DNA from: Verrucomicrobiia bacterium
Lineage (GTDB): Bacteria; Verrucomicrobiota; Verrucomicrobiia; Verrucomicrobiales; Akkermansiaceae
Direction: 5' to 3'
Length of the DNA stretch: 64,000 nucleotides
Assembly: GCA_030432565.1 (NCBI GenBank)
Contig: JAUIGV010000001.1
Span: 124,001-188,000, forward strand
The notes under the pieces were generated by a model. The model was not told where the DNA came from, searched no databases, and saw only the letters and a program-made list of their open reading frames with translations. Below, one piece after another: positions 7,533-32,031 of this stretch (position 1 is the stretch's first letter; each line of letters begins with the position of its first letter). A program made the translations under genes and the position numbers.

Positions 7533-10500
7533 CTACTCCGCACGGATCTTGAGTCGGGCAAAGTCGGTATTGGATGATGATGCCGGTGATATTGATCGGA
7601 ACATCCTAGTGATAGAGCCGTCCGCATGGGGTGGAGATGGCATCATCTCCATGGTGTTTTCGGACCAGGTTTTCAGGTCTTGGCTAACTTCCATGAAGTA
7701 GGTAACGCCAAGAGCTCCGGGCCAGGATTCAAACTCGATGCTCAAGTGGGTCACTCCTTCGATTTCCTGAAACCCACCCCGAATTTGGTTTGGCAGATCG
7801 CTTGCATCTTCCGGGTGCATGCCCAGGGCGAATTCGGCGAAATTACTCCAGCCATCATTGTCGGGATCGGCATCAGGGCCCGAGATGGCCGGATCGGCAA
7901 GATCGTTCGTTCCGAAGGTCCAGTTCTGCCATTCGATGAAATTCATTGTGGAGATGGTCTCCATTGGGTTGCCGTGAATTCCACGCGAAGCGATCCAGTT
8001 GTTGCCGTCGTTGTGATTCGGGTTGTTGGAAGGTAGCTTCAGTTGGAGGGTGAACCCCTCGCCATCGGCGGCAGTGGGCCAGGGCCTTTGATCATTATAG
8101 GTGAAGGCTTTGATGAGGCTGCCGTCACGTGCAATGATCTCAATCCGTTCACCGTCGTTACTCAGATTGCCACGATATTCGCCAGCAATTCCGGTCGGAT
8201 CGATGGCCGGATATCGGGCCAGGAACGCGTGTTGATCCTCAACCAAGAGAAGGCTTTCGCCAGCCGGGATGCTGAAATTGTTGGCGTCTGTAAAATCAAA
8301 TTCTACACCGTCGGTGAGTCGGACACCGTCGAGGTGAATCGGTCCGTTGGAGATGTTGGTGAACTCGATGAATTCGAAATCAGTTCGGCTGTAAATTCCT
8401 TCGGGATCTTCTGCCGGGCTTGGCCTTGCGGGGCGATAGCTCAACTCACTCACCACGAGATTTTCGGCAGTCGCCGGAGCGCCCACGAGGTAGCGCACCG
8501 AGTTGACCGGCGACCATTCGTTCCCGGAGAGAAGTCGGGCGCGAACGACGGCGCTGTCATTGAGAGTGAGTTGCGAGGGATCACTTGGGCTGGTGGCGTT
8601 GAGTTCAAGGTCGAAGCTGATGTCGGAGCTGGTGGCGCTGTTTTGGTGGACTTCCACGGAGATGACATTTTCGCCCTCAAGGAGCAGGTTGACCGGAACG
8701 TCGTTCTTCTGATGGAAGATGGATTCATCGGCTCCACCTGCGCTATTGGTGGCAAGCGTGGTGTAGGTGATGGGACCGGTGGCAGGCATGCCATTGCGCC
8801 AAATTTCAGTGCCGTTGAGATAAACGACGGCTCCGTCATCCCTGCGCAATCCGAGCTGGAGCCCGGTGATGTTCGCTGCGTTGTCAACGGTGAAGGATTT
8901 TCGGAAGTAAGTGGTGATGAATTTGTTGCTTATATCTCCGCCGAAGCCGACCTGGGTTCCTTCTGCTCCGCCGGGACCGTCGCCATAGCCAAGCTCGGCC
9001 TGGCCGGTGGACCATGCCGAGTCGTCAAATCCAACGGCTTGCCAGGCCGTCCCTTGATCGGAACCATTGTCGAGATAAGACCATGTCGATTCTTTCGCGA
9101 TTAAAGTGGCGGAGACCTCGCTGCCGTTCACGGCGATGGCGTTTGGATTGATCGCTCCGCCAGGGAGGCGCGGGTCGCTGCCATCTGTAGTGACGTAAAC
9201 GGTGCCAGGTCCGGCGGTGAGCGAAGGTGAAAAACCAGCGGTCACCTCGCCGCCATGTGGTTCGAATTCGGGAGCTTCCACGGGATACCAACCTTGTGCC
9301 CGAAGTTGATTGAGAAGGATTCCGGTTCGCTGCGCGAAGTAGGTGTCGGTGACGTAGTTCCATTCGTTTTGCCATTCTCCATCACGGTCCCACGGGGGGC
9401 TGATCGCGCGGGAAGGTTGCCAACGGGCGGTCTCGGGAACGAGGGCTTTGCTGATTTCGTTCATACGGTAATCGAAGGACGGGGTGGCGCCTCCGGGAGT
9501 CAGGAGTCCGTCGTGGAAGAAGTGTTTGTAAATACGATCACGGAAGTAGACCCGGAAATCGCGGTCGTTCATCAGGGTCCGAAAGACTCCGTCGGGCGCG
9601 TTTTGGTCGAGATTGTTTGCGTTGACATCGTAGAGCATGACGTCGCAGTCCCACGAGAAGAACTGCCAGCCACCTTCGCCGGGGTTTTTTGGTCCGGCAG
9701 CCATCCAGTTGTGCTGGGTGGTCCAGTCCCAATCGTTGCCGCAGTAGTAGTAAAGGAGTTGGTTGTCGGCGAGGCTCTCCCAATTGATCCAGTCTTTCGA
9801 GGCTTGTCCGCCGGTGGACGCGGCTGTTTTTACGGCGTTCCATGCGGTGCTCCAGGTGTCTCCGTTATCGTGATCGCTGCCGGTGCGGCCGGAATTGGTG
9901 TAATGATAGTCCTCGGCGTCCCCTCCGAAGTATTTGTCCATGTAGTGATGCATGGGGCGCTCGTGAAGGTGATAAAGACCGTGATAAGTGCCATTGATAT
10001 AGCAGTGGACGTAGCGACCATGCAGCGAGGTGTGGCCCATGATCATTTCCATGTCGCTCACCCAGCGATTGCGAACGTAGAGGGCATCGCCGGGACGGTA
10101 GGCCCCGTTGGATTGGTTGGTCGGAATCGCCATCCAGTAAAAGTTGTCGTGGGAACCGCCGCGGAGTTGCAAGAGGTCGAACTCATCATTGTCTGTTTCG
10201 GTGCTATAAGGTTCCTTGGCAAAAACGGGATAGCGGAGTTTTGACTCGCCGTATTCGCTGCGGAAATAGAGTCGCCAGTTGTTTTTTGCAGACCCTACGC
10301 TGGCCCCTCCGACGATCTTGATTCCGGCATCAATTTGAAAGCCCGGCTCGCTGCCATCATTACTGATGAGCTCCATGGACATCTCGGTTTCACTCGAGCT
10401 GACACTCCCGGATTTCACTATGGAAACCACAGGGAGAGCGAGAAGGCCATCTTCCATTTCGGATCCGTAAGTGGGGTGGTCCGTGATGACGGATCGAAAG

Positions 10501-12530
10501 ACGGACTGGCCAAGGATGCCATCGGTGTCTTCGTTGGCGACACCGCCGACCCAAAGATAGGTATGAGTGGAAACCGGTGAGATCGCGGCTCCGGGATGGA
10601 CGGCTATGGCGCGGATTCTCCGGGTGCCGCGGGTGGTGCTACCGGTCTCGGGCGATACCGTGAAGGGACCGGTATAAATGATTCCAGAGCCGGCGGTGGG
10701 TTTTTGTCCGTTGGTGGTGTAGCGAATGGTTGAGCCGGGAATGGTGGGGGTGAGTTCAAGTTGGAACGCTTCGTTGTAAAGACCGCGCTCGACCGAGAAG
10801 GTGACTTCATTTCTGACGTTCGCGGCAATGCTGCTGTTGGCGGCGCCCGGAGTGGCGCTTTGGAGGAAACCGAGTTCGCTGAGGTTTCCATCCTGACCGA
10901 ACGAGACGTCCGGATAGACCTCGGGATATTTGATTTGGCTGGCGATGGTAAAGCCATCCGGTTTGACGAGGTAGAGGGTTTCGCCCGATCCCGAGAGCTG
11001 GAAATTGGTGTGCAGGTTGCCTCCATCGATTGGTCGCCGGTCTTTTGCGGAAGCAAAGACGATCAGGAATTCATTGGGTCCCACCGTGATCGCGGGGAAG
11101 GTCCATTTGGTCAGGTTGTCCGGATCATCGCTCAGATGCCAGCCATTGAGGTTTGCAGCTCCGGCTTGTTCGTTGAAAATTTCAATCCAATCGCTGGCCG
11201 AACCATCTTCATCGAGAAGGGTGCTGCCATTGCTGGCCACCAGCTCGTTAATTCTGAGGGAAGGTTCGGTGACGGTGAGCGTAAAGCTTTTTTCAAAGGT
11301 GAGGCCCGAGCGGTCAATGGTGCGGATCCGGAAGGAAAGGGAGGGTAGGATTTCCGGTATGGAAGCTGCGACTTCCAAGGTGTCACCATCAATCGAGAAG
11401 AGCGCGTTGTCGTCACTCCCTTCTCCTGGAATCAATTCGTAGATGTGACCGTCAATGGAGTTGATGTCGGATGTCGTGAGCTTACCGACCGGGGTTCCGA
11501 TGATTGCTCCCGAGCTGATGGAGGTGGCGCTCAGGCCAAGGTCGCCTGGAGCGACGGGGTCGCCCAGTGTGAGGGCGAAATCGGCGTCTAAAAAGCGGGC
11601 CGGGTCATCGGCATCGGTGGTGCGAACGCGAACAGCAAATGTTTCGCCCGGTGCGTGAGCAGTGAAATCATAAACGGGGGACGGGGCCAATTGATCATCG
11701 ACGATTTCAAATTTATCATTATCAGCGCCACCGGGTGCGAGTGAGTAGAGGTGGGTGGAGTTGCGTTTGAGATCGACGGTGGTGAGGAGGCCGACAGGCT
11801 CGGATTGGGCTGCAAAGAATTCCTTTGGCGAAAGCTCCAGTGACTCGGGCGTCGGCGGGACGGTGACCTCGGTGACGGTGAACGCCTGCAGGATGGGATT
11901 GTTGTCCGACCCCATCGCGGGTTGTCCACCGAGGTTGACATTGAGTTCGACATTGAGAGTGGTGTCTCCGGGTGCGAGGTTGAAGGGTGCGATATAGGCG
12001 AAGCCGTTATTGCCGTTCCACGCTCCTTGTCCTTGAGAGGAAAAATCATCGACCGCGAGTTCGCCTTCGATGCCGATGTCCCACCGGCGGTTGTTATTCC
12101 GGCCTTCATTGAAGAGCATTTGCAATTCATATTCCACACCCGGGTTAAGCCCGGTCACCTGGAGGGAAAGACTGCCCGGAGCAGGAGTCCAGCGGATGTC
12201 CTGCATGATGAGTTCAAGGTTGTCGGCGGATGCTTGGTCGGCCCCGGTGTAGGATGGCCGGCTGGCCCAGTCGTTGATCGAGTTGACAGCGGAGACCGTG
12301 ACATTGGCGGGAGGGCTTCTATCGGTCTCGAAGAGAACGCCGTTGACGGTGCGGTCACTGTCTCCAAAAACATCAATGGCAACCACGACCCTCGCTGGAT
12401 CGAGTTCCAGGTCATCGGGCCCGGTGAACTCACGAATCTCGCCAACGTTTATTATGGTTTCTGCTGTCGCAGGCAGGGCCACTGATAGGAAAACCAGAAG
12501 CGCGATGGCAAGGTGAAGCATGGAGATCAT
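7533..12530 (-). CDS. Giant secreted GPDD-domain / lamin-tail / CotH-like protein
   Basis: A 1665-residue surface protein. After a signal peptide (to about residue 23), domains in order are: one copy of the 'GPDD' domain (about 26-222) shared with two neighbouring genes; cadherin-like repeats (about 230-430); a lamin-tail domain ('LRINELVASNGSTLLDEDGS', about 430-545); a chitobiase C-terminal-like domain (TPTIPGSTIRYTTNG); a CotH-like region (KIVGGASVGSAKNNWRLYFR, about 690-1050); a second chitobiase-like segment; a galactose-binding-like module (about 1150-1310); a second lamin-tail domain; and a C-terminal beta module. CotH relatives include protein/spore-coat kinases, but activity here is not shown. 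It starts 47 bp after the preceding GPDD gene and is probably co-transcribed with it. Confidence 0.85.
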   Translation of the reverse strand: MISMLHLAIALLVFLSVALPATAETIINVGEIREFTGPDDLELDPARVVVAIDVFGDSDRTVNGVLFETDRSPPANVTVSAVNSINDWASRPSYTGADQASADNLELIMQDIRWTPAPGSLSLQVTGLNPGVEYELQMLFNEGRNNNRRWDIGIEGELAVDDFSSQGQGAWNGNNGFAYIAPFNLAPGDTTLNVELNVNLGGQPAMGSDNNPILQAFTVTEVTVPPTPESLELSPKEFFAAQSEPVGLLTTVDLKRNSTHLYSLAPGGADNDKFEIVDDQLAPSPVYDFTAHAPGETFAVRVRTTDADDPARFLDADFALTLGDPVAPGDLGLSATSISSGAIIGTPVGKLTTSDINSIDGHIYELIPGEGSDDNALFSIDGDTLEVAASIPEILPSLSFRIRTIDRSGLTFEKSFTLTVTEPSLRINELVASNGSTLLDEDGSASDWIEIFNEQAGAANLNGWHLSDDPDNLTKWTFPAITVGPNEFLIVFASAKDRRPIDGGNLHTNFQLSGSGETLYLVKPDGFTIASQIKYPEVYPDVSFGQDGNLSELGFLQSATPGAANSSIAANVRNEVTFSVERGLYNEAFQLELTPTIPGSTIRYTTNGQKPTAGSGIIYTGPFTVSPETGSTTRGTRRIRAIAVHPGAAISPVSTHTYLWVGGVANEDTDGILGQSVFRSVITDHPTYGSEMEDGLLALPVVSIVKSGSVSSSETEMSMELISNDGSEPGFQIDAGIKIVGGASVGSAKNNWRLYFRSEYGESKLRYPVFAKEPYSTETDNDEFDLLQLRGGSHDNFYWMAIPTNQSNGAYRPGDALYVRNRWVSDMEMIMGHTSLHGRYVHCYINGTYHGLYHLHERPMHHYMDKYFGGDAEDYHYTNSGRTGSDHDNGDTWSTAWNAVKTAASTGGQASKDWINWESLADNQLLYYYCGNDWDWTTQHNWMAAGPKNPGEGGWQFFSWDCDVMLYDVNANNLDQNAPDGVFRTLMNDRDFRVYFRDRIYKHFFHDGLLTPGGATPSFDYRMNEISKALVPETARWQPSRAISPPWDRDGEWQNEWNYVTDTYFAQRTGILLNQLRAQGWYPVEAPEFEPHGGEVTAGFSPSLTAGPGTVYVTTDGSDPRLPGGAINPNAIAVNGSEVSATLIAKESTWSYLDNGSDQGTAWQAVGFDDSAWSTGQAELGYGDGPGGAEGTQVGFGGDISNKFITTYFRKSFTVDNAANITGLQLGLRRDDGAVVYLNGTEIWRNGMPATGPITYTTLATNSAGGADESIFHQKNDVPVNLLLEGENVISVEVHQNSATSSDISFDLELNATSPSDPSQLTLNDSAVVRARLLSGNEWSPVNSVRYLVGAPATAENLVVSELSYRPARPSPAEDPEGIYSRTDFEFIEFTNISNGPIHLDGVRLTDGVEFDFTDANNFSIPAGESLLLVEDQHAFLARYPAIDPTGIAGEYRGNLSNDGERIEIIARDGSLIKAFTYNDQRPWPTAADGEGFTLQLKLPSNNPNHNDGNNWIASRGIHGNPMETISTMNFIEWQNWTFGTNDLADPAISGPDADPDNDGWSNFAEFALGMHPEDASDLPNQIRGGFQEIEGVTHLSIEFESWPGALGVTYFMEVSQDLKTWSENTMEMMPSPPHADGSITRMFRSISPASSSNTDFARLKIRAE

Positions 12531-12577: not shown

Positions 12578-14890
12578 TTATTCGGCAACTCGCACGCGGT
12601 AGAATCCCACCGGTCCGGTTTGCGGCAGGGGGTCCTGATGGGTCGTTGTTTCTCCCTGGCTCGCAATGCCATCCTCAATTTCAATCCAAGGGCTCTGAAG
12701 GTTTGTCGAGAATTCGAGGATGTAAGACGCTCCGGGTCTGGAGTTCCAGGTGAGGATTGAAGTCCCTGTGTCCGGGTTATAATTCAAGTTGGTAATTTGA
12801 AGGGGAGTGGCAGCACCAGCCTCTGTGACAATCACGGCCTGAAGAATGGGATTATTGTCCCTTCCACGTGCTTCAATCCCACCTATCTGTTGTTGCATGA
12901 CAATGTTAAGAATCCCGTCTGCCGGAGCTTCGAATTCTCCGACATAGGCAAAACCATTATTTGCGGTCCAGGCATCCACCGATTCACGTCCGGACGAGGT
13001 GTAGTTATCGACAACGAGTTCGTTCTCAACTGCGATATCCCAGTGGCGGATGTTGGTGGATCTTCCTTCGTTGGTCAGAAGTTTGATTTCGTAGTTCGCT
13101 CCCGGATTAAGCCCGGAGATGTCGATGGTCACGGGGTTGGGGGCTGCGTTCCAACGGATGCTCTCCATGATTGATTCGAGGTTGTCGGTAGAGGTGGCGT
13201 CAGCTCCGCTGTATTCAGGGGAGACACCGTTGGTTGCAGGCGTGGCCCAGTCGCGAATCTGATTGGGCGCGATGGTCGTTACGGTCACTCCGTCGTTTGT
13301 GACCACTCCGGCTCCACTGGTATCTTCCAGGAAGGTGACCCCGTTGACATCACGGTCGAAATCTCCGAAAGAGTTCACCGCGATTACCACGGAAGCGGGA
13401 TCGAGATTGAGATCATCCGGTCCGGAAAATTCGATGATGTCGCCAACGAGAATTTCGGTGAAGGAATTGATACCGGGATCGGTCGGAGCTGGATCCAAGT
13501 TGTCGTCCACCCCGTCGTCGTCAGAATCCCTTTTCGTTGGATTCGTTCCCGCCGCTACTTCGTCTCCATCGGAGAGGGTGTCGCCATCGCTGTCTCCGGA
13601 AAGAGGGTCTGTCATGTTAATGGCTTCGTCCCCGTCATTGAGGCCGTCCTGATCGGAGTCTTCATCGAGGGGGTCGGTGCCCGCCGTGGCTTCCTGTCCA
13701 TCGGTCGAGCCATCATTATCGCTGTCCTCATCGGTGGGGTCTGTTCCGGCGGTGAATTCATCGGCATCGGACGATCCGTCGCCATCAAAGTCGCCGGTGC
13801 CCGCACCAGGTCCCGGGCCGCTCGCGAGGCCGGTGAAGTCAGCGATGTTTCCAAAACCCAGTTCCCAGGAATCTTCGAGGCCGTCATTGTCGCTATCCGA
13901 TGCGACAACGACTTGAATCGGGGTTGAAAAAGAGCGCCCACCCTCGTCGGTGCTTTGGATTCGGACCGAAAGTGTTGAACCCGAAAGTGCGGAGAAATCG
14001 AAGTCGGAAATCAGTTCGCCATCGGCAATTTGGAACTTGTCGTTGTCGGTGTCGCCGGCACCGGCGACGAGTGAATAGGTGTGGAATCCGCCGTTGGGAT
14101 CGGATGACGAAAAAGTACCGATGGTGGCACCACTTGCCAGACCTGAAGGGAAAATGTTTGGGGACAAGGTGATGGCATCCGGAGGGAGCGGAAGCGCGTT
14201 GAGGTGGACAATGACAGCCTGAAGGATGGGGTTGTTGTCCGCTCCTGCGAAGGGGGTATTGTTCGGGTCGACCGGGAAGGGTTCGCGTCCCATGGTAATA
14301 TTGAGAACGCCGTCGCTTCCCGGCGCAAAGACTCCTGTGTAGGCGTAGCCGGTGGTTGGTGAAGAAACTCCCCCTCCGCCAGTGGGGCCAATCGAGGTCC
14401 AGTCATCGACAACGAGTTTGTCCTCGATCCCAATATCCCAATGGCGGTCGCTGACCGAACCATTTTCGCCAAAGAGAAGTTGCACGTTGTAGAGAATCCC
14501 TTCTTCGAGTCCGGAAATATCGACGTCAATCGTGGAAGGTGCGAGGGACCAGCGAATATCATGCATGATGAGTTCGAGGTTGTTGGTCGAAGCGCCATCG
14601 ATCCCGGTGTAGCTGGGAGCGGTTTGCCAGCCATCGATTTGATTGGTTGCGCTGGTCGTTACAGTAACGCCACCTTCGGTGACAGGACCAGCCACATCGG
14701 ATTGGAAATTGACTCCGTTTACGGTGAGTGGACCGGAATTGCCGTTCACGTCCACGGCAATGACACTGAGCGTGGGGTCGAGGATAAGATCATCCGGGCC
14801 GGTGAATTCCACCGAAGTTCCCTCGATCATATTTGTGGCTGTTGCCCCTTGAATGAGGAGGAGTGCGGAAAGAAATCGAAGGTACTTCAT
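12578..14890 (-). CDS. Secreted protein with two GPDD domains flanking TSP3 calcium repeats
   Basis: A 770-residue exported protein. The signal peptide MKYLRFLSALLLIQGATA is followed by GPDD domain copy 1 (about 21-230), a cadherin-like domain (about 238-330), five or six thrombospondin type 3-like Asp-rich repeats (about 331-470; pattern DxDxDGxxDGxE), GPDD copy 2 (about 478-690), and a C-terminal beta module ('SYILEFSTNLQSPWIEIE'). The Asp repeats would bind calcium and probably form a rigid spacer. There is no PEP-CTERM or other anchor. It is the first gene of a likely two-gene operon with the CotH gene downstream. The function of the duplicated domain is unknown; surface binding or adhesion is a guess. 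Confidence 0.8.
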   Translation of the reverse strand: MKYLRFLSALLLIQGATATNMIEGTSVEFTGPDDLILDPTLSVIAVDVNGNSGPLTVNGVNFQSDVAGPVTEGGVTVTTSATNQIDGWQTAPSYTGIDGASTNNLELIMHDIRWSLAPSTIDVDISGLEEGILYNVQLLFGENGSVSDRHWDIGIEDKLVVDDWTSIGPTGGGGVSSPTTGYAYTGVFAPGSDGVLNITMGREPFPVDPNNTPFAGADNNPILQAVIVHLNALPLPPDAITLSPNIFPSGLASGATIGTFSSSDPNGGFHTYSLVAGAGDTDNDKFQIADGELISDFDFSALSGSTLSVRIQSTDEGGRSFSTPIQVVVASDSDNDGLEDSWELGFGNIADFTGLASGPGPGAGTGDFDGDGSSDADEFTAGTDPTDEDSDNDGSTDGQEATAGTDPLDEDSDQDGLNDGDEAINMTDPLSGDSDGDTLSDGDEVAAGTNPTKRDSDDDGVDDNLDPAPTDPGINSFTEILVGDIIEFSGPDDLNLDPASVVIAVNSFGDFDRDVNGVTFLEDTSGAGVVTNDGVTVTTIAPNQIRDWATPATNGVSPEYSGADATSTDNLESIMESIRWNAAPNPVTIDISGLNPGANYEIKLLTNEGRSTNIRHWDIAVENELVVDNYTSSGRESVDAWTANNGFAYVGEFEAPADGILNIVMQQQIGGIEARGRDNNPILQAVIVTEAGAATPLQITNLNYNPDTGTSILTWNSRPGASYILEFSTNLQSPWIEIEDGIASQGETTTHQDPLPQTGPVGFYRVRVAE

Positions 14891-14981: not shown

Positions 14982-17900
14982 TTACTGTTCGGATCGGTAG
15001 GGTTTGCCGGTTTGATACAGGGCAATCTTTGCCTGGAGCTTTGGGAACAGATCATTTCGTCCGATGGCGCGAGCGGCGGCGATGGCCTTGCGAGTGGCGA
15101 TGATGGCTCCCTCAAAATCTCCGGTTTCAGCGAGCGCGACACCCAGGGAGTCGAGCGGCGAGGGGTGGCTTTCTCCGGCCCGGGCGATCACTTCATTGGC
15201 AAGTTCCAGCGCTCGTTTGCCATCACGAAATTCGTCGGCAGGCGTAGTGGCAAGAAGCAGGGCGAGATTGTTTTTGATATTCGCGGAAGTCGGTTGGGCT
15301 TTGAGGAGTTGATCGTAAATGCCGATCGCTTTGGCGGGGTCGCCTCCGGTCTGGTGTGCGAGGGCGAGTGAGAGTTGGTAGCCCGACTGCTTTGGCTCCA
15401 GCGCGATCGCTTTTTCAAATGCCCTCACGGCGGAGTCATATTGCTTGATTTGCAAGTAGGCCTTGCCAAGGGCATTTGAGAGTCCGGCGTTTTTTTCGCC
15501 AGCTGTGGAGACTTCGTCCAAAACCTGTCGGGCTTCATCTCTTTCACCGGCTTGCCAGAGCGAGACCCCTAGCGGGATCTTGAGGACGACATTCTCTGGG
15601 GCGAAGTCCAAAGCGCTTTGGTAGGCTTCGGCAGCGGCCTGCCAATGACGAAGCCCTTGCTCGAGTGTGCCGATGAAATACCAGGCTTGGGCTCGTCTTG
15701 CGAGGTCCGCCTCGGCATTGGCGGTGAGGGGGGCTTCGGTGACCTTATGAGCTTCACGTCTGGCGGATTCGGGATCGCCGCCGGCTTGGTAGGCTTTGGC
15801 AAAATCAAGGTGCCCGAGGGGGAAGAGACTGGTGCCATCGCGGCCGGGGAAGGGAAAGGCGTGTTGGGCGAGGGTTTTGGCATCGGCTTCAAGGAGGTTC
15901 AGGTCGGCCAGCAGTTGGTCCGCGCTCACGGGGCCTTTGTAGATTGCGGCAAGACGTCCCCATTGATCGATCAGGAAGCTAGAAGGAAGTGGGAGTGGGC
16001 GTTGGCGGACGATGACACGGTTGTGGAGAACAGTCAGCAGGCGCAGGCCTTTCTGATCGGTGGCACCAATCTGAAAGGGAAAGTTTGATTTGGCGACGAG
16101 ATCCTTCGCTCCGGTGACGTCAGGTTTGACATCGCCCTGCGGGACTCCCTCGACGGTAAGGGCCAGGATTTCGAGTCCTTTTTTGGAAAGCTCGCCGTAG
16201 CGTTTCTTAAGGTCGGCCAGCTCGCTGCAGCAGTTGGGGCACCAGCTGGCCCAGACGGTAATCAGGGTGGGGCTGCCTGATCCACTGGTGTCGGGATGGT
16301 GCTTCTGAAGCTCGCCTTTGAAGTCGACATAGTCGAGAGGAGGCGATGGGATGCGGTGGCTGAGAATGATGCGGGCTTGCTCGGTTGGAACCGGGGGAAT
16401 GAGTTCGTTTTCGTCGTCAGGGATGGCGGACTTTCTTCGTTCGATGACCCGGGCTGCACCCGAGTTTTGAATCAGTTGATAAGCTTTTCCGGGCGTGATT
16501 TGCGTGAAGGTTTCCGGAGCTGCGCCGGGCCAACGCACGACGACAGAGATCGGTAGGCCCTTCGGTTCGCCCAGCCCAAAGTGGAGGCGTTTTCCGGATT
16601 GGCTCATGAAGCCATCGCCAGCGGTCAGGGTGCGGGTGATGATTTTATCGCCCATCTCCAGGTTTAGCACCGCCCCGATGCCATCGCGGTTACTGGAGGT
16701 TCCGGTGAGCTCAAAAGCGACCCAATTCCTGCCCGGGTTGAGATTGTTTTTGACGAAGCGGAGGCGCGGGCCTTCGCGGTTGGTTTGCCAAAAATCGAGG
16801 TCGCCGTCCTGGTCCCAATCGGTCGCGATGACAGCACGGCCATCATCAATGAAATCGAGCCCGCTGACGGCCGAGACGTCGGCAAAGCGTTTCAAAGAGC
16901 CGCCTTCGGACCCGAGATTGAGGAAGGCGCAGTTGCGTTCGCGTCCGCTGAAGGAGCGACCGCGGGTGAGCATGGAGGACAGGGCATCCCAGTTTTTGAG
17001 ATAGCCCTCGAGCGAATCAGCCTTGTCGAGTTTGGCTGGGGATTGCGCCACGACCTGGCGCCAGTAAAAACTTCACAAATCTCCGCTGTCGGATTGGGTG
17101 AGAAAGCCGTTCGAGACGATGATATCCTGTTTGCTGTCGTTGTTCAGGTCGACGAACCGCGAGCCCCAGGCCCAGCGGCCCATGGTGACGCCGGTTTCCT
17201 CGCTGGCGTCCCGGAAGGTGCCGTCGCCATTGTTGAGGAAAAGGGAATTTCCCCGGGCGTGGCGTTGAAATTCACCCCGCACGGCGTCGTTGATGGAGGT
17301 TTGAAAATTCCTTTGGTAAGCGATGCGGTTGCCTGCGCTCGACCACATGTTGCTGACATAAAGGTCGCGGTCACCATCACCATCGGCATCTCCCCAACTT
17401 GCAGACATCCCGGCGGAAATATCTTCGACTCCAGCTTCTGCGGCGACGTCGGTGAAGTGGACATTTCCAAATTCATCACGGTCATTCCGGTAGAGATTGT
17501 TTCGACCGTAATCATTGGCGACGTAAAGATCAGGGTCGCCATCATCGTCGTAGTCCTCCCAGGTCGGCGCGAAGGAATAGCGGCGGTTGTTCTGATCGAG
17601 GCCCAGCTCGATGGTGGCATCGGTGAAGCGCCAGTTGGTATCGTTGCGGAAAAGAACATTCCGGCCCCCGTTATTGGCATCGTGGTAGGGGATGGGGCGG
17701 CCGAGTTGGGCGGCGTCGCCCTCTTTGTCTTGGGAATTTGAGCTACGCAATGAGTAGCAGGCCGTGTAAATATCGAGGTCACCATCGAGGTCGATATCAG
17801 CAGCGGCGAGAGCGACGGGAGGGGCTTCGGGGACAAGCCTGTTCTCTTTGACAATGAAGTTTCCATGCGTGTCATTTTGCATGAAAATTACTCCCAGAGT

Positions 17901-18950
17901 GGTGGCGATGACGAGGTCCTGGTGGCCGTCGTTATCGAGATCGACAAAGAGAGCTGCCTGGGATTGCAGTCGGAAATCGGTGCCGGAAGCGGCGGAGGCA
18001 TCGACCACGGTGCCATCGGGCTGTGCGAGGAGGAGCCGATTGGGGAGGCCTCCGGGCTCGCAGAGATAGAGGTCGTCGAGACCATCCCCATTGACGTCGC
18101 CCAAGGCCATGCCGTGCCATCCCGAGATGCCGATTCCGTAGCGGCTTTCGATGCGGCCTGCCCAGTGTTCGGTGCCGTGTAGAAATTGCTTTTTCAACGC
18201 GGCGGAGTTCTTGAAAACGGCTGCGGAGTTGTCGGCGAATAGGGGTCTGGCTTCGGTCTCTTCGAACTCCGAACTTTGAATCGACTTCAGAAGGGGCGGA
18301 TCGGCCGGGTCGGGCCAATGCCAGAGGCACCGCCAGCGGGCGTGACGGGTGAGGTAATCCTCTCCTTCTTTTGCCTTTCCGTTGATTTGCACCAATGCTT
18401 CGCACTCCGGTTGACCGTCTTTGAGTTCGACCGTAAAGATTTTAAATTTGCTTCGGAAATCGTCACCGGGCAGCAAGGGTGAGCGGAACTCTGCAAGGGC
18501 GGCGACAAGGGCGGTTTTTCGACCTGGGTCCGGGGGGGCGTTACCACGGCGAACCAGGTAGTGGCCATCATCAAAAACCGTGGTGAGATCGGAAGGAACA
18601 AGGGGGAAGGTGAGACTATCAGGGGCGATGATTCCTTCCAGGTCTTCTTCGGTGAGCTGCGTGGAGTCCTGCAAGATCAAGCCAAGTTCTTTGAGTTGGG
18701 CGGAGGCTTGCTCATTGAAAACTTCGCCCTGCCAACCGTCCTTGGATGGTTCCTTGTGAAGAAATGAATCAACCAAGCCGATGGATTCAAGGTCGATGGC
18801 TGCGAGAGGTGCCTGTGGCTCCGATGAGGACCGGCTTTCTCCCGTTTGCGATGAGGCCCGCTCTTCCCGGGTGGTGGCTTCATCCGACTTGCATGAGAGT
18901 GAGATGAAGGCAACGGTAGTTGCGATGAAAGCTTGGAGGCCTTTGTGCAT
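14982..18950 (-). CDS. Candidate selenoprotein: FG-GAP / ASPIC-UnbV / TlpA / TPR lipoprotein
   Basis: One continuous frame of 1322 codons, broken only by TGA at 17075-17073 (codon 626). The first part has a lipoprotein-like leader (Cys20) and FG-GAP/VCBS repeats (about 270-620). The second part continues in frame with SFYWRQVVAQSP, then ASPIC/UnbV (about 756-828, 'SSNRDGIGAVL'), a TlpA-like thioredoxin domain with WCPNC (about 903-907) and TPR repeats (about 1035-1320). Read separately, the downstream half would start at an internal GTG with no signal peptide, although its thioredoxin domain should be extracytoplasmic. The SFYWRQVV stretch is, from my memory of the family, conserved between the FG-GAP and ASPIC parts. 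A SECIS-like hairpin follows the TGA, so I infer selenocysteine insertion. Alternatives are a nonsense mutation, stop readthrough or a sequencing error. Confidence 0.75.
17045..17061 (-). promoter_or_regulatory. Bacterial SECIS-like hairpin after in-frame UGA
   Basis: On the mRNA (minus strand) the nucleotides 12-28 after the UGA form GCGCC-AGGUCGU-GGCGC, a perfect 5-bp stem, or 6-bp with an A-U closing pair. GGUC occupies positions 18-21 after the UGA. In E. coli fdhF the SECIS loop AGGUCU has GGUC at positions 19-22, one nucleotide away, and SelB recognises the GG/U of that loop. The hairpin overlaps codons for R-Q-V-V-A. Stem, loop sequence and distance are all seen directly; function as a SECIS is inference. 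Confidence 0.7.
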
Positions 18951-19039: not shown

Positions 19040-19804
19040 TTAGATTCGTTTCCTTCGCAGGAAGAAGGTCGAAAGTCCGAGTCCCAGCAGGGCAAGGCTG
19101 CCGGGTTCCGGAATGACCTCATGAACAATGACCGCGTGAAGGATGGGGTTATTGTCGGCACCCGCGGCGGCCGTGTTGTTGGGGTCTCCGGGGAGAGGCT
19201 CGAATCCCATCACGATGTTAAGAGCTCCGTCGGCACCTGGGTCAAAGTCGCCGGAGTAGGCCGAGCCGATGGAGGCAGAGGTTCCGTTGGTATTGTAATC
19301 ATCCACAACCAGAGCACCATCGACACCGATGTCCCAGTGGCGGTCGGATACGGAGCCATTCTCGCTGAAGAGAAGCTGGACATTGTAGATCGAACCCGGG
19401 GTGAGCCCTGTGATATCAAGTGAGATGTTTGGAGTGGCGCTTGTCGCAAGGGACCACCGGATATCATGCATGATATTAGAAAGTGCTGCCGATGACCCCG
19501 GAGTTCCACCAACATAGCTCGGAGCGGTGGTCCATCCGTTAATGGAAAAGCCGGCTGCGGAGGAAACGGCAACAGCTCCATTGGAAACGGAGCCCGTGAT
19601 GCCAGTTCCGTCGTTGAGGAATGAAACCCCGTTCACGATGTTCCCCGAGGTGTCGCCGCCGATATCAACTGCGATGACGTTTGTGGAAGGATCGAGGAGG
19701 AGGTCGTCGGGCCCGGAAAAAGTGGAGACAGAGCCAGTGATCACGGCGCCTTCAGCGGCAATCGTCACGGCGGCCGCAGCCAGGATGGTCTTGATGAATT
19801 TCAT
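19040..19804 (-). CDS. PEP-CTERM protein with single GPDD domain
   Basis: A 254-residue exported protein. Signal peptide MKFIKTILAAAAVTIAAEG is followed by one GPDD domain (about 21-231, starting SVSTFSGPDDLLLDP and ending ADNNPILHAVIVHEV). The C-terminal sorting signal is VIPEPGSLALLGLGLSTFFL then RRKRI, a textbook PEP-CTERM tag (Pro-Glu-Pro, transmembrane stretch, basic tail) recognised by an exosortase. The domain is nearly the whole mature protein, so it must be able to stand alone. I used the ATG at 19804; upstream in-frame starts add a non-signal extension. No exosortase is in the window. Confidence 0.85.
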   Translation of the reverse strand: MKFIKTILAAAAVTIAAEGAVITGSVSTFSGPDDLLLDPSTNVIAVDIGGDTSGNIVNGVSFLNDGTGITGSVSNGAVAVSSAAGFSINGWTTAPSYVGGTPGSSAALSNIMHDIRWSLATSATPNISLDITGLTPGSIYNVQLLFSENGSVSDRHWDIGVDGALVVDDYNTNGTSASIGSAYSGDFDPGADGALNIVMGFEPLPGDPNNTAAAGADNNPILHAVIVHEVIPEPGSLALLGLGLSTFFLRRKRI

Positions 19805-19910
19805 TGGAGTAACCCTGTTTAAGTTGTTAGAGTCTCCAGTAAACGGATCAGGGTTGCCCTTGTCCATAGAAAAAGCCTGTAGTGGCCAGCGATTCCTCTA
19901 TGGTTCGGCC

Positions 19911-22403
19911 ATGCATCGTCGTTTTATGATCCCGGCAGCGCTGGCTGGTCTCCTGTCGTTTTTCCTTTCCGCTTGTCGGGAGTCGGCGGAGGTCCCGCCC
20001 AAAAAGGATGCAGGTGGTCCCGTCAATGGTGCCGGGGGAAACTCTCTTCCCGTGATTTCGGCTCTGCCGGAGTTTTTACTGACGGATCAAAGCGGGACGG
20101 TCTTTGACTCGCGGGAGATGAAGGGCAAGGTGTGGGTGGCCGACTTCATCTTTACGCGATGCCCCTCGACCTGTCCGGAGCAGACGGGTGAAAAGGCGAA
20201 GCTCCAGAAGCGTTTCGAGAGCTTCGATGATTTCCGTTTGGTGACCTTCACCGTCGACCCCGAATACGACACCCCGGAGGTGCTTGCCGACTATGGAAGG
20301 AAGCATGGCGCGGATCCAGCACTTTGGAAATTTCTCACCGGACGCCGTGGAGATCTCTGGAATTTGAGCGCGAATGGATTCAAATTTGATGTCGCCGAAG
20401 ATGCGAAAAATTCCGGGATGCCGATTCTCCATAGTTCGGATTTCGCCCTCGTTGATCGCGAAGGCCGTGTGCGGGGTGTTTATGATAGCCTTGGTGAAGA
20501 GGGTAGAAGTGGTTTGCTGGTCGATTTGAAAAGACTTTTGGGCGAGGAGTCAAAGGTGGCTTCAAAAAGTAAAAAAGAGCATGAGAGGGTCTATCATCCG
20601 GCGGAGATCGAAACTTCCCCCTGGATGAAGAGTCGCGAGCTTTTGCAGAAAGCGAGTGCGCGGCGTCTGGAAGCTTTCCACGATTTTGAATACACGGACA
20701 TTGCCGGATTGACGGGGATCACTTTTAAAAACCGGATCGTTGACGATGCGGGAAAGCTTTATAAAGCGGTCCATTACGATCATGGCAATGGTCTCGCGGT
20801 GGCGGATGTCGATGGCGATGGCTTGCTGGATTTGTATTTTTCGACCCAGATCGGATCGAACGAACTCTGGCGGAATCTCGGCAATGGGGCTTTTGAAAAT
20901 ATCACGACTCCTGCGCTTGAAATTGCCAATAAGATTGGGGTGACCGCCTCCTTCGCGGACACCGACAATGACGGGGACCCCGATCTCTTTGTGACCACCG
21001 TCAGGGGCGGGAATCATTTCTTCCGAAATGAAGGTCAGGGCAGATTTGTGGATGAAACGGAATCATCAGGTTTGGGGTATGTGGGGCATTCTTCGAGTGG
21101 AGTCTTTTTCGATTACGACAAAGATGGCTTGCTCGACTTGTTTCTTTGTAATGTGGGGAAATACACCACGGATGAAAAAGGAGCGGGAGGATATTGCGTG
21201 GGATTCACAGATGCCTTCGAGGGACATAAGGAGGGGAAAGAACGAAAGGAGCGTAGTATCCTCTACCGCAACCAGGGAGGGAATCGTTTCGAAGATGTTT
21301 CGGGGAAGACCGGTCTCGTCGACGAGAGTTGGTCCGGTGATGCCGCGCCCTTTGATTACGATGGAGATGGCTGGACCGATCTCTACGTGTTGTCGATGCA
21401 GGGGCACGATGAAATATACCGGAACGTCGCAGGAGAGCGGTTTGAAAAAGTCAGCCGCCAGATCTTTCCCCGGACCTCATGGGGATCGATGGGGATTCAA
21501 ATTTTTGATTTCGACAATGACGGTCGCCAGGATGTTTTTGTGACCGACATGCATTCCGACATGAGTCAGAGCGTCGGGCCGAACAAAGAAAAGGAGAAAG
21601 CTGAAATACAATGGGGGGAAGAGATGTTGCTGACCGGAGGAACGAGCATTTTCGGCAATGCCTTTTATCGTTCGCTGGGCGAGGGGAGGTTTGAGGAAAT
21701 TTCTGATGAGATCGGAGCTGAAAATTACTGGCCGTGGGGTCTGAGCGCGGGTGACTTCAATGCCGACGGGTTCACCGATGTCTTCATCACTTCGAGTATG
21801 AACTTTCCCTTTCGTTATGGGGTCAACAGCCTCTTGCTGAATGTTAAAGGAAAGCGCTTCGCGGACTGTGAATTTGTCCTTGGAGTCGAACCGCGCCGGG
21901 GTGGTCGAACCGCCAAGCCTTGGTTCAAGTTGGATCCTCAAGGTGAGGACAAGGGAAACAAGTTTGTTGAAGAGCTAAAGCTTACCGGGCCCACTGAAAT
22001 TTGGGGTGCTCTCGGAAGTCGCAGTTCGGCTGTTTTTGATTTCGACAACGATGGAGATCTCGACGTCATTACCAATGAATTCCACGATGGACCGATGGTG
22101 CTCCGGTCCAACCTCAGTGAGAAGTTGGACGACAATTTAAATTGGATTGGGATCAAGCTGGAGGGAACGAAATCAAATCGCGACGGCCTGGGAGCGGTTG
22201 TCAAAGTGGCTGCAGGAGGGAAGACATTGGTGCAGGTGAATGATGGTGTCTCGGGTTATCTCTCCCACAGTCTCATCCCGCTCTACTTTGGCTTGGGTGA
22301 ATCGGGAACGGTCGAGGAAATTGAGATCACCTGGCCAAGTGGGGCGAAGACACCCCTGGGAGGGCTCTCGGCTGGAAAGGTTCACACGATCAAAGAGCCT
22401 TAG
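19911..22403 (+). CDS. SCO1/SenC-like domain fused to FG-GAP and ASPIC/UnbV repeats
   Basis: An 830-residue predicted lipoprotein (lipobox FLSAC, Cys22). The N-terminal half of the exported part is a SCO1/SenC thioredoxin-fold domain with the copper-binding FTRCPSTCPE motif (Cys84, Cys88) and a later His in MPILHSSDF. FG-GAP/VCBS calcium-type repeats (DVDGDGLLDLYF, DTDNDGDPDLFV and others) and a C-terminal ASPIC/UnbV domain (SNRDGLGAVVKVAAGGKTL) follow. SCO proteins handle copper or thiol-disulfide chemistry for cytochrome oxidase; here the fusion suggests a surface redox protein. The start at 19911 is chosen for the lipoprotein leader, with an alternative ATG at 19926. It is divergent from the GPDD PEP-CTERM gene. 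Confidence 0.83.
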   Translation: MHRRFMIPAALAGLLSFFLSACRESAEVPPKKDAGGPVNGAGGNSLPVISALPEFLLTDQSGTVFDSREMKGKVWVADFIFTRCPSTCPEQTGEKAKLQKRFESFDDFRLVTFTVDPEYDTPEVLADYGRKHGADPALWKFLTGRRGDLWNLSANGFKFDVAEDAKNSGMPILHSSDFALVDREGRVRGVYDSLGEEGRSGLLVDLKRLLGEESKVASKSKKEHERVYHPAEIETSPWMKSRELLQKASARRLEAFHDFEYTDIAGLTGITFKNRIVDDAGKLYKAVHYDHGNGLAVADVDGDGLLDLYFSTQIGSNELWRNLGNGAFENITTPALEIANKIGVTASFADTDNDGDPDLFVTTVRGGNHFFRNEGQGRFVDETESSGLGYVGHSSSGVFFDYDKDGLLDLFLCNVGKYTTDEKGAGGYCVGFTDAFEGHKEGKERKERSILYRNQGGNRFEDVSGKTGLVDESWSGDAAPFDYDGDGWTDLYVLSMQGHDEIYRNVAGERFEKVSRQIFPRTSWGSMGIQIFDFDNDGRQDVFVTDMHSDMSQSVGPNKEKEKAEIQWGEEMLLTGGTSIFGNAFYRSLGEGRFEEISDEIGAENYWPWGLSAGDFNADGFTDVFITSSMNFPFRYGVNSLLLNVKGKRFADCEFVLGVEPRRGGRTAKPWFKLDPQGEDKGNKFVEELKLTGPTEIWGALGSRSSAVFDFDNDGDLDVITNEFHDGPMVLRSNLSEKLDDNLNWIGIKLEGTKSNRDGLGAVVKVAAGGKTLVQVNDGVSGYLSHSLIPLYFGLGESGTVEEIEITWPSGAKTPLGGLSAGKVHTIKEP

Positions 22404-22412
22404 CTGCTTGAG

Positions 22413-23840
22413 TTACGCCAAAATTGGCTTGATGACATTTCCGCCGACGTCGGTGAGGCGGAAGCGGCGACCGTTGTGGGTGTAGGTGAGCTTTTCGTGA
22501 TTGAAGCCGAGTTGGTGGAGAATGGTGGCGTGGATGTCGTTGACGTGGGCTCTGTCCACAGCGGCGTGGTGGCCGATTTCGTCGGACTCGCCGTAGCTCA
22601 CTCCTCCTTTGATTCCGCCTCCCGCCATCCAGGTGGTGAAGCAATGCGGATTGTGATCGCGGCCGGGTTTTGCTGATTTTTGGGACAGCGGGAGTCGACC
22701 GAATTCGCCACCCCAGATGACGAGCGTGTCTTTTAGGAGGCCACGTTGTTCAAGGTCGGTGAGGAGCCCCGCGATGGGGGTGTCGGTCTCGCCGGCGAAT
22801 TGGCTGTGGTTTCCAGCAATGTCATTATGGCCGTCCCAGCTGCGTTGGTTTTCCATTCCGCCGGAGTAGATCTGCACGAAGCGGACCCCCCGCTCGACCA
22901 TTCGGCGGGCAGTGAGGCATTGGCGGGCGACGTGGTCGCAGCGTTTCTCTCCGACGCCGTAAAGTTTCTTGATGTGATCGGGTTCGTTCTCGATATCAAA
23001 GGCCTGTGGCGCGGCGGTCTGCATGCGGTAGGCGAGTTCGAAGCTCTTGATCCGGGCCTCAAGTTCGGAGTCGCCGGGGCGGGTTTCAAGATGTCCGACG
23101 TTGAGTTTTTTGAGTAAGGCCAATTGTCGGGTCTGTTGTGCGTCGTTCATGTGCGCCGGACGATGGAGGTTGTCAATGGGGTCGCCTTTGGGCTTGAGCC
23201 AGGTGCCTTGATAAACGCTCGGAAGAAAGCCCGCGCCCCAATTGGCGGCGTGCCCCTTTGGCAGTCCGCGATTGAGGGGGTCCGACATCACGACGAAGGC
23301 GGGGAGGTCACGGCTTTCGCTTCCCAGGCCATATGTGACCCACGAGCCGACACAAGGATTCCCCATGCGGGGGAGGCCGGAGTTCATCATGAAAAGGGCC
23401 GGGCTGTGGTTGTTTGATTCGGTATAGCCGGAATGAATGAAGGCCATTTTATCGACATGTTCACCGAGTTTGGGAAAGATGGACGAGACCATTTTCCCGC
23501 ACTGTCCCCGTGGGGTGAACTTGAAGGGTGACTTCATGAGCGGACCGACCGCGTTGGCGAAAAAGCCGGTATTTTTATCGAATCCCTTGAGTTCCTTGCC
23601 GTCCATTTTTTCGAGCTCCGGCTTGTAATCCCAGGTGTCAACCTGGCTGGGGCCTCCATTGATGAAGAGCCAGATGACCGACTTGGCCTTGCCCGGAAAG
23701 TGGGCGATCTTGGGAGCAAGGGGATCGCCGGACCCAAGGAGTCCTTCGTCCGCGAGGAGCGAGGCAAGACCGAGGCCGCCGAGGCCTGCGCCGGCATTTT
23801 GAAGCCAATGACGTCGGGTGTAAAAATCAGAGGAGTTCAT
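22413..23840 (-). CDS. DUF1501 family protein, Tat-exported
   Basis: A 475-residue protein of the DUF1501 family (alkaline-phosphatase/sulfatase superfamily fold), abundant in PVC bacteria. The leader has a twin-arginine motif (YTRRHWLQNAG). Recognisable family segments are 'AKSVIWLFINGGPSQVDTWD', GGEFGRLP and GRDHNPHCFTTWMAGGGIKGG. The start ATG overlaps the stop of the preceding PSD1-type gene by 4 bp (ATGA), so the two are translationally coupled. This partner arrangement is standard in the phylum; the exact substrate is unknown. It converges on the SCO gene with a 9-bp gap. Confidence 0.88.
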   Translation of the reverse strand: MNSSDFYTRRHWLQNAGAGLGGLGLASLLADEGLLGSGDPLAPKIAHFPGKAKSVIWLFINGGPSQVDTWDYKPELEKMDGKELKGFDKNTGFFANAVGPLMKSPFKFTPRGQCGKMVSSIFPKLGEHVDKMAFIHSGYTESNNHSPALFMMNSGLPRMGNPCVGSWVTYGLGSESRDLPAFVVMSDPLNRGLPKGHAANWGAGFLPSVYQGTWLKPKGDPIDNLHRPAHMNDAQQTRQLALLKKLNVGHLETRPGDSELEARIKSFELAYRMQTAAPQAFDIENEPDHIKKLYGVGEKRCDHVARQCLTARRMVERGVRFVQIYSGGMENQRSWDGHNDIAGNHSQFAGETDTPIAGLLTDLEQRGLLKDTLVIWGGEFGRLPLSQKSAKPGRDHNPHCFTTWMAGGGIKGGVSYGESDEIGHHAAVDRAHVNDIHATILHQLGFNHEKLTYTHNGRRFRLTDVGGNVIKPILA

Positions 23841-26800: not shown

Positions 26801-26920
26801 GGTCTTTTGAAAGAGTGCCGTGCCTGCTTTCATGCGTCCGGCGTGATCCGCCGGGAGGGGATCTCCAAGAGAGTGGAGGGCGAGCGAAAGAAAAGCGAGT
26901 CCGTGAACCAGTTTCGGCAT
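23837..26920 (-). CDS. PSD1 / planctomycete cytochrome C (DUF1549-DUF1553) protein
   Basis: A 1027-residue secreted protein. After the signal peptide is a planctomycete-type cytochrome C domain with CLKCH (about residues 50-54), then DUF1549 ('WARHWLDAARFAESHGFEQD') with a second cysteine motif CARCH in 'GLTIGCARCHDHKFDPIPVK', a middle beta-rich region, and DUF1553 ('VARVAVNRIWHHHFGKGIVA', 'IYFMIKRSRLIPIMQVFDQP'). Members are probably periplasmic electron-transfer or degradation proteins, often beside DUF1501 proteins as here (4-bp ATGA overlap). Function is known only at family level. Confidence 0.88.
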   Translation of the reverse strand: MPKLVHGLAFLSLALHSLGDPLPADHAGRMKAGTALFQKTIRPALIEHCLKCHGDEKVRSGLDLSTRDLLLEGGETDDAINLEDPEKSYLLTLIRHQEEPEMPPKKDRLPDSLIADFKKWIALGAPYDKPLLEKGRNKSTAMQVTESDRNFWSFKPLGNPVPPKIDHPWIRSDLDRFILTKLSENQLTPNRPASDEMRIRRAYLSVIGLPPTPKQLKDALSKSHAGLIDELLASPHYGERWARHWLDAARFAESHGFEQDYDRKHAYHYRDFVIKALNSNMPWDRFIRWQLAGDEFAPDNPLAMMATGFLGAGVFPTQLTEKEFESARYDELDDMAATTGTAMLGLTIGCARCHDHKFDPIPVKDYYRLVSVFTSTIRSEIDIPLDSDDYRTSLRKWEKSHQATQAALASYEQDPDTILTFHQWLKSNTPARLSASDWNILSFSGMASSQTATTLTTQPDGAILASGDAPAKETYTLTTKPGAQTIRSIRIEALTHPSMKRNGPGRAANGNFSLSDLKIITTLPGQTGKPVKLTSAKATHQQNESNLSAASSFDSDPNSSGWAVDSGGIGKDQAAVFELAEPLQINNETSLEFHLRFFTNTQHSLGKFRISTSDKTAPPVIVGGGKDLHLDQAIRALLTGRLTKEHRKPLFDLFKQGDPDWQRFNADLQKSLTSKPRPAIAKVQVTSEGFPPTKHHADGRGFPHFYPETYFLGRGDPNQKKGIAKPGYLQVLMRNGKTSDHWKEEPPAAWNRTSYRRRNLANWITDPKNGAGHLVARVAVNRIWHHHFGKGIVATPNDFGLQGALPTHPELLDFLAQKLITSGWDLKALHREILLSATWLQSSEPSAGKTAVDPKNQFLWRFSPRRLEAEVIRDSMLAASGQLDTTMFGPGTLDESHRRRSIYFMIKRSRLIPIMQVFDQPEPLVSQGSRPSTTIAPQALLFMNNPQVANWARSLAKTLDASQPDLAIRELYLRTLTREPTANELAVNRSFFDSQSASYAESKNAPQLALADLCQVMFSLNEFIYLP

Positions 26921-31877: not shown

Positions 31878-32031
31878 GGTGGTCGACAAGTTTCCTTGCA
31901 CTCTATTAAGCCCGATCTTTTTCCGAAAAGGGCCAAAAAAGTGACGGAAATTGCAAAGAGTTTTTTTTGAGAAAAATTTGGCCCTTTTTTGCCCGCTTCG
32001 GTGCCAATGCCCAGTGAACGAAGAAGTTCCA

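Follow-up and report, generated by a model that had tools for sequence, protein, structure and literature searches.

CRTAC1 and the ASPIC/UnbV-FG-GAP proteins have the closest solved fold (PDB 9etn) to the protein described here, and CRTAC1 is not known to contain selenocysteine (Sec). TlpA and ResA (PF00578) have a CxxC domain in common with it, which is here a module fused behind a propeller inferred to bear Sec. According to the accessible part of a 2026 review, whose table comprises 119 prokaryotic selenoprotein families and subfamilies, most characterised selenoproteins have a thioredoxin-like fold (PMC13188914). Cys homologs are reported to be numerous for almost all selenoproteins (PMC12013277, available in part). 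In the window, i.e., the whole 64-kb stretch of DNA analysed, we identified a gene in which an in-frame UGA very probably specifies insertion of Sec at codon 626, as in a family of related selenoproteins; this is inferred from comparison of sequences, and neither selenium nor protein has been measured. The family is probably an undescribed and highly duplicated one of Verrucomicrobiota and Planctomycetota, with Sec placed on a beta-propeller and with the thioredoxin-like domain that serves it in the same polypeptide.

Reading frame and domain layout of the gene

Translation with TGA read as U gave an open frame of 1,322 codons, interrupted only by the TGA of codon 626 (minus strand, 17075-17073). 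A sequence-only reading of this DNA had proposed a frame at 14982-18950 that is continuous except for a TGA at 17073-17075. This proved correct, with U626 as the one recoded codon, and the coordinates stand, but the strand had been left unstated and is minus (18950 to 14982). Within the window, nine TGA codons lie in frames that stay open for 150 codons or more in both directions. The one at codon 626 is flanked by 652 and 696 open codons, and the shorter side of the other eight does not exceed 247.

All of the domains that had been proposed (FG-GAP, ASPIC/UnbV, TlpA-like and TPR) were recovered with Pfam, FG-GAP_3 with 110.7 bits and FG-GAP with 51.9 bits (Table 1). Export of the protein is inferred. 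It had also been called a lipoprotein: a lipobox pattern matches the orthologs L059 and L060, but not the window's own protein, and from these sequences a lipoprotein is plausible but not shown.

TABLE 1 Coordinates of the putative selenoprotein gene, its parts and its neighbours in the window
Feature	Position	Strand	Basis or remark
Putative selenoprotein gene	14982..18950	minus	1,322 codons, Sec626, TAA end
N-terminal export signal, possible lipobox (...FISLSCKS)	18876..18950	minus	By eye; inferred
FG-GAP repeats, upstream beta-propeller part, about residues 280-602 (limits approximate)	17145..18113	minus	Pfam, AlphaFold model
UGA, inferred selenocysteine residue 626	17073..17075	minus	TGA in 102/103 distinct homologous sequences, TGC in 1
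SECIS hairpin core, 6 bp, loop GGUCG, starts 12 nt after UGA	17045..17061	minus	Covariation, fold, covariance model
Cys674, possible resolving Cys	16929..16931	minus	Cys in 45/47 aligned members
ASPIC/UnbV domain, residues 757-824	16479..16682	minus	PF07593, 47.3 bits (cut-off, 23.4)
TlpA/ResA-like thioredoxin-fold domain, residues 891-1001	15948..16280	minus	PF00578, 37.4 bits (cut-off, 26); Foldseek ResA, TlpA
CPNC redox motif, residues 904-907	16230..16241	minus	CxxC in 46/47 aligned members
C-terminal TPR repeats, residues 1086-1231 (limits approximate)	15258..15695	minus	Pfam
PEP-CTERM gene between the putative selenoprotein gene and the SCO1/SenC neighbour	19040-19867		
Divergent neighbour, SCO1/SenC + FG-GAP + ASPIC, no in-frame TGA	19911..22403 (ORF 19527-22403; start 19911 estimated)	plus	Orthologs upstream of the closest family members

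The machine-made list of open reading frames (ORFs) divides the frame into 17073-18950 and 14982-17051, which is what can be said for a pair of separate genes, for a pseudogene or for an error of sequencing. We consider these virtually ruled out. ORF 14982-17051 begins at a GTG within the conserved WRQVV motif and, by eye, has no signal peptide of its own, in agreement with the sequence-only reading. TGA recurs at this codon in 102 distinct homologous sequences from many assemblies, so that a read error is very unlikely. Moreover, a Cys ortholog (L092) is a single ORF, and in the CRTAC1-like part of the structure model confidence is high before as well as after the site. Split genes, a pseudogene and a read error were rejected on these grounds.

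The hairpin downstream of UGA626

The stem-loop GCGCC-AGGUCGU-GGCGC that had been claimed for nucleotides 12-28 after the UGA is present exactly as given. An extra inner A-U pair extends it to 6 bp and leaves a 5-nt loop, GGUCG, with a minimum free energy (MFE) of -11.6 kcal/mol and 17 nt from UGA to loop. These values meet the constraints of the bSECIS consensus in the accessible part of PMC13188914, i.e., a loop of 3-9 nt, an upper stem of 4-16 bp, G in the first two loop positions, a spacing of 16-37 nt and an MFE of -7.5 or below. Taken alone, the window hairpin is unremarkable (z, -0.49; 59 of 200 shuffled sequences gave an equally stable or more stable fold), so its support is comparative and does not come from folding alone. 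A strong single-sequence fold was also absent in L092 (z, -0.37), L124:2398 (0.38) and L058 (-1.24), and L173 was the only one of those folded with a strong signal (z, -3.23). L173, L124:2398 and L058 have a stem displaced by one base, which encloses a GGUC tetraloop, so that another stem displays the same loop.

Covariation was assessed in the 92 distinct 40-mers among 102 TGA sequences. The six pairs were formed in 97.5% of the 552 cells (92 sequences), and sliding the columns by 1 to 3 lowered pairing to at most 66.5%. Cells with both sides changed numbered 34 versus a shuffled mean of 7.7, and none of 500 shuffles was as high; the double changes were spread over three of the six pairs, a spread that was also attained in 33 of 500 shuffles. 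The revealing pair is that of columns 18-28, in which the third base of an Arg codon pairs with the first base four codons on (Ala GCG or Ser TCG): CGC and CGT accompany GCG, and CGA and CGG accompany TCG, i.e., a silent base follows an amino-acid change. Codon use, determined for 64 genes (68 complete ORFs minus duplicates), was near-frozen within the stem-loop, with Gln CAG in 55/55, Val GTC in 59/63, Val GTG in 59/60, Ser TCG in 44/44 and Ala GCG in 16/17, compared with background fractions of 0.21-0.54. Codons outside the stem-loop were freer, the next Ser using five codons and Pro four; some bias occurred outside the stem, too (Ser627 AGT/AGC, 64/64; Gln636 CAA, 39/45).

The family element was also represented by a covariance model, with the window site among the aligned sequences used to build it. 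This model scored 62.7 bits at the site (E, 1.9e-13), and its sole other match in the window reached 13.2 bits (E, 0.16). The sequence-only reading had also pointed to a likeness to the fdhF element of Escherichia coli. This holds for loop and spacing: the E. coli K-12 element has A-GGUC-U with the loop starting at nucleotide 22, and the window element has A-GGUCG-U with the loop at nucleotide 21. It does not extend to the stem, which in fdhF is longer and bulged, unlike the 6-bp stem of the window. The family model did not detect the fdhF element and is therefore family-specific, not a general SECIS finder.

Family members, Sec machinery and Cys homologs

With a query of 240 residues around codon 626, matches were obtained in 47 of the 97 related genomes. 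Among the matches listed, every one that spans codon 626 has exactly one internal stop, a TGA; the lone listed match without a stop (G021:C436) ends ahead of this codon. Alignment to codon 626 yielded 194 places, 118 with TGA and 76 without. The non-TGA rows comprised L092, 59% identical, and 75 others of at most 31% identity, which were taken for matches to a different FG-GAP repeat or ASPIC protein and left out. The TGA rows, which include duplicates and the window's own copy, lie in ORFs complete on both sides (68) or in partial ones (50). After removal of the window copy, of sequences shorter than 60 nt or bearing N and of identical 60-mers, codon 626 was TGA in 102 and TGC (Cys) in 1 of 103 distinct homologous sequences. 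A second scan, of the contigs of the best 80 of 179 relatives, gave 79 loci labelled Verrucomicrobiota or Planctomycetota (or subgroups), with a few labelled Proteobacteria or only "bacterium." Some metagenome-assembled genomes (MAGs) occur in both genome sets, e.g., as G004 and G120 (the genome of L085), with SelA at the same place of the same contig. One close family member, 65% identical, stems from a record labelled Akkermansia muciniphila (L087); its genome and that of a same-order relative (G068) have SelA at an identical contig and place, so the two look like one assembly, and the label of L087 may be wrong.

The family element occurs seven times in the window's genome. The seventh copy is weak (E, 0.09) and lies in the right frame of a divergent member, L173. 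Another genome, G026, has at least 12 matches with TGA among the matches listed. The Sec motif of the family reads DL-U-S-[FV]-[YF]-W-R-Q-V-V; a divergent second subfamily (B), consisting of L173 (G000:C46), L058, L124:2398, L138, L139 and L144, has its TGA in DL-U-S-x-[LFY]-W. We aligned 46 members with the window protein, omitting near-duplicates, minus-strand loci, seven loci that contained undefined residues and those whose upstream frame or DNA was too short. The Sec position, D624, L625, S627 and W630 were invariant (47/47), Cys674 was Cys in 45/47, and CxxC was kept in 46/47, L058 being gapped there. Both aligned members of subfamily B keep Sec and lack Cys674, and L058 also lacks CxxC, indicating that neither Cys674 nor CxxC is strictly required. 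Sec coding, the SECIS element, the family and the conserved CxxC are supported by comparison.

In 66 of the 68 complete ORFs, a W...CxxC motif begins 258-279 residues after Sec; the pattern was not found in the other two, L127 and L058. That the UGA precedes CxxC in these 66 would also be compatible with a selenium switch, by which low selenium would leave a useful exported fragment of 625 residues without the thioredoxin-like and TPR domains. This fragment would lack the last predicted part of the propeller and hence, by inference, would probably be unstable, and we regard such an additional function of the UGA as improbable.

The window's genome (5.93 Mb in 82 contigs, 97% complete) encodes SelA (489 bits; cut-off, 268), SelB (a 652-residue frame; 315.6 bits; cut-off, 242), SelD (386.7 bits; cut-off, 125) and tRNA-Sec (54.4 bits; gathering, 47), which ARAGORN called as tRNA-SeC with anticodon TCA. 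Its SelD gene (L026, G000:C73) has one in-frame TGA, in SCGG-U-ASK, in agreement with UxxK, the motif given for selenophosphate synthetase in Table 1 of PMC13188914 (accessible part). The genome thus contains the full Sec pathway, which the sequence-only reading had left to be looked up as selA, selB, selC and selD, with tRNA-Sec(UCA) included, and a well-known second selenoprotein gene.

SelA exceeded its cut-off in 53 of the 97 relatives. UGA members occurred in at least 33 of the 97 among the matches listed, and all 33 genomes have SelA; 29 were obtained with the 240-residue query and four (G005, G019, G066 and G070) came from relatives with weak matches only. Conversely, no UGA member was found among the matches listed in the 44 SelA-less genomes of the 97 (Fisher p for co-occurrence, 3e-12, uncorrected for kinship). 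Scored separately, the SECIS model matched at least 29 of the 97 genomes, all of them SelA-positive and the same 29 as found with the query. Weak matches only were present in 18 relatives: four of these have TGA and are all SelA-positive, and no stop occurred in any listed match of the seven that are SelA-negative. Among the 43 UGA-bearing genomes from the best 80 of 179 relatives, SelA was over the cut-off in 36, only partial in 2 (G126 and G128) and missing or without a credible match in 5 (G101, G105, G115, G123 and G139); the completeness of these genomes is not given.

A frame open past the UGA would also result if the codon were translated as Trp or another residue without SelB, by readthrough or code reassignment. 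However, stop codons of the 68 complete family ORFs are TAA in 29, TGA in 22 and TAG in 17, i.e., UGA still stops translation in the family. Furthermore, the internal TGA occupies one fixed codon accompanied by a covarying hairpin, TGA members among the matches listed are confined to the SelA-positive ones of the 97 relatives, and well-aligned non-TGA homologs have Cys at the site, not Trp. On account of all these points UGA as Trp was rejected, and readthrough or reassignment in general appears highly improbable.

Cys at this site in homologs had been suspected in the sequence-only reading, and none of the outcomes that it named as refutations came about. A full-length ortholog bears the suspicion out: L092, from a Phycisphaerales MAG, has TGC in one frame of 1,340 codons, counted from the preceding stop, and the same layout. 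Since its genome is SelA-positive, L092 is a Cys copy in a SelA-bearing genome. Nevertheless, Sec is the rule and Cys is rare (102 TGA to 1 TGC). In four distant relatives (L140-L143), the aligned position is the Cys of DYCTKFW; these come from two SelA-negative (G086 and G089) and two SelA-positive genomes (G074 and G092). Judged by these alignments, Sec/Cys exchange is real but rare among the homologs found (one close, four distant). In L092, the SECIS-like letters GCGAC-AGGUCGU-GUCGC persist after the TGC (L092:5382-5426), with a different minimum-energy fold; as these letters are still present, L092 perhaps represents a recent Sec-to-Cys change.

Predicted fold, possible function and known systems

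An AlphaFold2 model of residues 236-1046, computed from 47 sequences with Sec modelled as Cys, had a mean pLDDT of 91.9 and a pTM of 0.93. The propeller and thioredoxin folds are predictions of this model. Its top solved match was murine CRTAC1 (9etn; Z, 36.0; rmsd, 2.5; 456 residues; model 1-595), with a CRTAC1 profile match at an E of 3.5e-30, and the later part of the protein matched ResA and TlpA (Foldseek and profile). With FG-GAP and UnbV_ASPIC over their cut-offs and a predicted CRTAC1-like fold, the protein qualifies as a CRTAC1/ASPIC-UnbV member; an AhpC-TSA/TlpA-type domain with CxxC likewise makes it TlpA/ResA-like, and, as expected of a bacterial selenoprotein, its in-frame UGA is embedded in sequence that is conserved before and after the codon. 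Sec (model position 391) is the second residue of the predicted helix 390-401. The N terminus of a helix is a typical place of reactive selenols and thiols.

SelB and tRNA-Sec very probably decode UGA626 as selenocysteine, directed by the hairpin 12 nt downstream, and in the predicted fold Sec lies where a helix of the CRTAC1-like FG-GAP/ASPIC propeller starts. A catalytic, self-reduced mechanism we propose only tentatively, with slightly less belief than doubt. In it, Sec is inferred to be the reactive nucleophile of an exported thiol/selenol oxidoreductase of unknown substrate. Once oxidised, the selenol would, by inference, be reduced by the TlpA/ResA-type CxxC domain fused ∼270 residues further along, with Cys674 possibly relaying reduction between the two; this domain would receive electrons via CcdA/DsbD, the usual electron route. 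Export route, catalysis and electron path are all inferred, and no distances from Sec to Cys674 or CxxC are available.

The divergent SCO1/SenC neighbour (Table 1) has counterparts at other loci. A gene 59-66% identical to it lies upstream on the opposite strand at L059, L060, L063, L064, L065, L067 and L070, and L061 has a partial version, 48% identical; at L064, L067 and L070 the similarity stops short of the SCO1 part. L087 and L098, although their proteins resemble the window protein about as closely as those of L064-L070, had no such neighbour among the matches listed. According to PDB titles, TlpA has been obtained in mixed disulfides with ScoI and with cytochrome oxidase subunit II. Together with the SCO1/SenC neighbour, this suggests by analogy that copper-site redox is one possible role for the window protein. 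A search for a conserved operon (73 of 100 neighbouring ORFs scanned, 62 Pfam families) revealed no family in more than 5 members among the 25 listed, and the one conspicuous neighbour was the divergent FG-GAP-ASPIC gene next to the closest orthologs. The neighbours of other members are mixed, and thus the Sco link may hold for one subclade only. The region further includes a DUF1501 and PSCyt1/PSCyt2/PSD1 (planctomycete cytochrome-type) gene pair at 22413-26920 (minus), a protein kinase domain with many TPRs at 27861-31901 (minus) and, downstream of the putative selenoprotein gene, a CotH/lamin-tail-domain protein and a TSP3-repeat protein at 7533-12530 and 12578-14890 (minus).

Sec could also be real but non-redox, i.e., structural or metal-binding (e.g., copper), with the thioredoxin- and Sco1-like parts handling metal or protein. 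In its favour, the window's gene and its closest orthologs have a divergent FG-GAP-ASPIC neighbour, which in several cases includes a SCO1/SenC domain. Cys674 is absent from both aligned members of subfamily B and CxxC from one of them, and selenoproteins with suspected metal-binding Sec are known (PMC13188914, accessible part). The retention of CxxC in 46/47 aligned members and the position of Sec at a helix N terminus argue against this explanation, which we hold to be rather unlikely.

Compared with CRTAC1, whose structure 9etn covers model residues 1-595 only, the window protein adds a predicted Sec in the core, followed by thioredoxin-like and TPR domains. The UGC-containing TlpA family and NF041054 (WAxxUGC) likewise combine Sec and a TlpA/ResA-like domain in one protein. 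Their Sec lies, by motif name, in the thioredoxin active site, whereas Sec626 lies in the propeller and the window's thioredoxin-like module has its own motif, CPNC, without Sec; the defining position of the known Sec-TlpA proteins, Sec in the active site of a thioredoxin fold, is therefore not shared. NF041054 scored 18.7 bits on the window protein versus a cut-off of 300. NCBIfam yielded nothing over the cut-off for the whole protein among 25 of 29 matches listed, and a single match, 12.4 bits versus 35, for the Sec region. In the accessible part of PMC13188914, no family named FG-GAP, ASPIC or UnbV was noticed, and no mention of FG-GAP, VCBS, UnbV, CRTAC, Verrucomicrob or Planctomycet was found. 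Likewise, full-text literature, a scope that leaves out preprints, most subscription papers and supplements, yielded no link between selenoproteins or selenocysteine and FG-GAP, ASPIC or UnbV. Selenoproteins of two planctomycetes have been reported with a supplementary table (PMC4807772, available in part), and a prior mention of the family in that table is possible. The family would have been overlooked because stop-to-stop gene calls halve each gene and because close Cys homologs, on which a current predictor depends, are rare.

If our interpretation is true, Verrucomicrobiota and Planctomycetota are overlooked selenium users, the split annotation needs correction in many genomes, and the functionally obscure bacterial ASPIC/UnbV propellers gain a testable active site. 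Members of this family, which is copied several times per genome in both phyla, would carry Sec on an FG-GAP/ASPIC propeller, have few Cys counterparts among the homologs found and usually bring their own CxxC domain.
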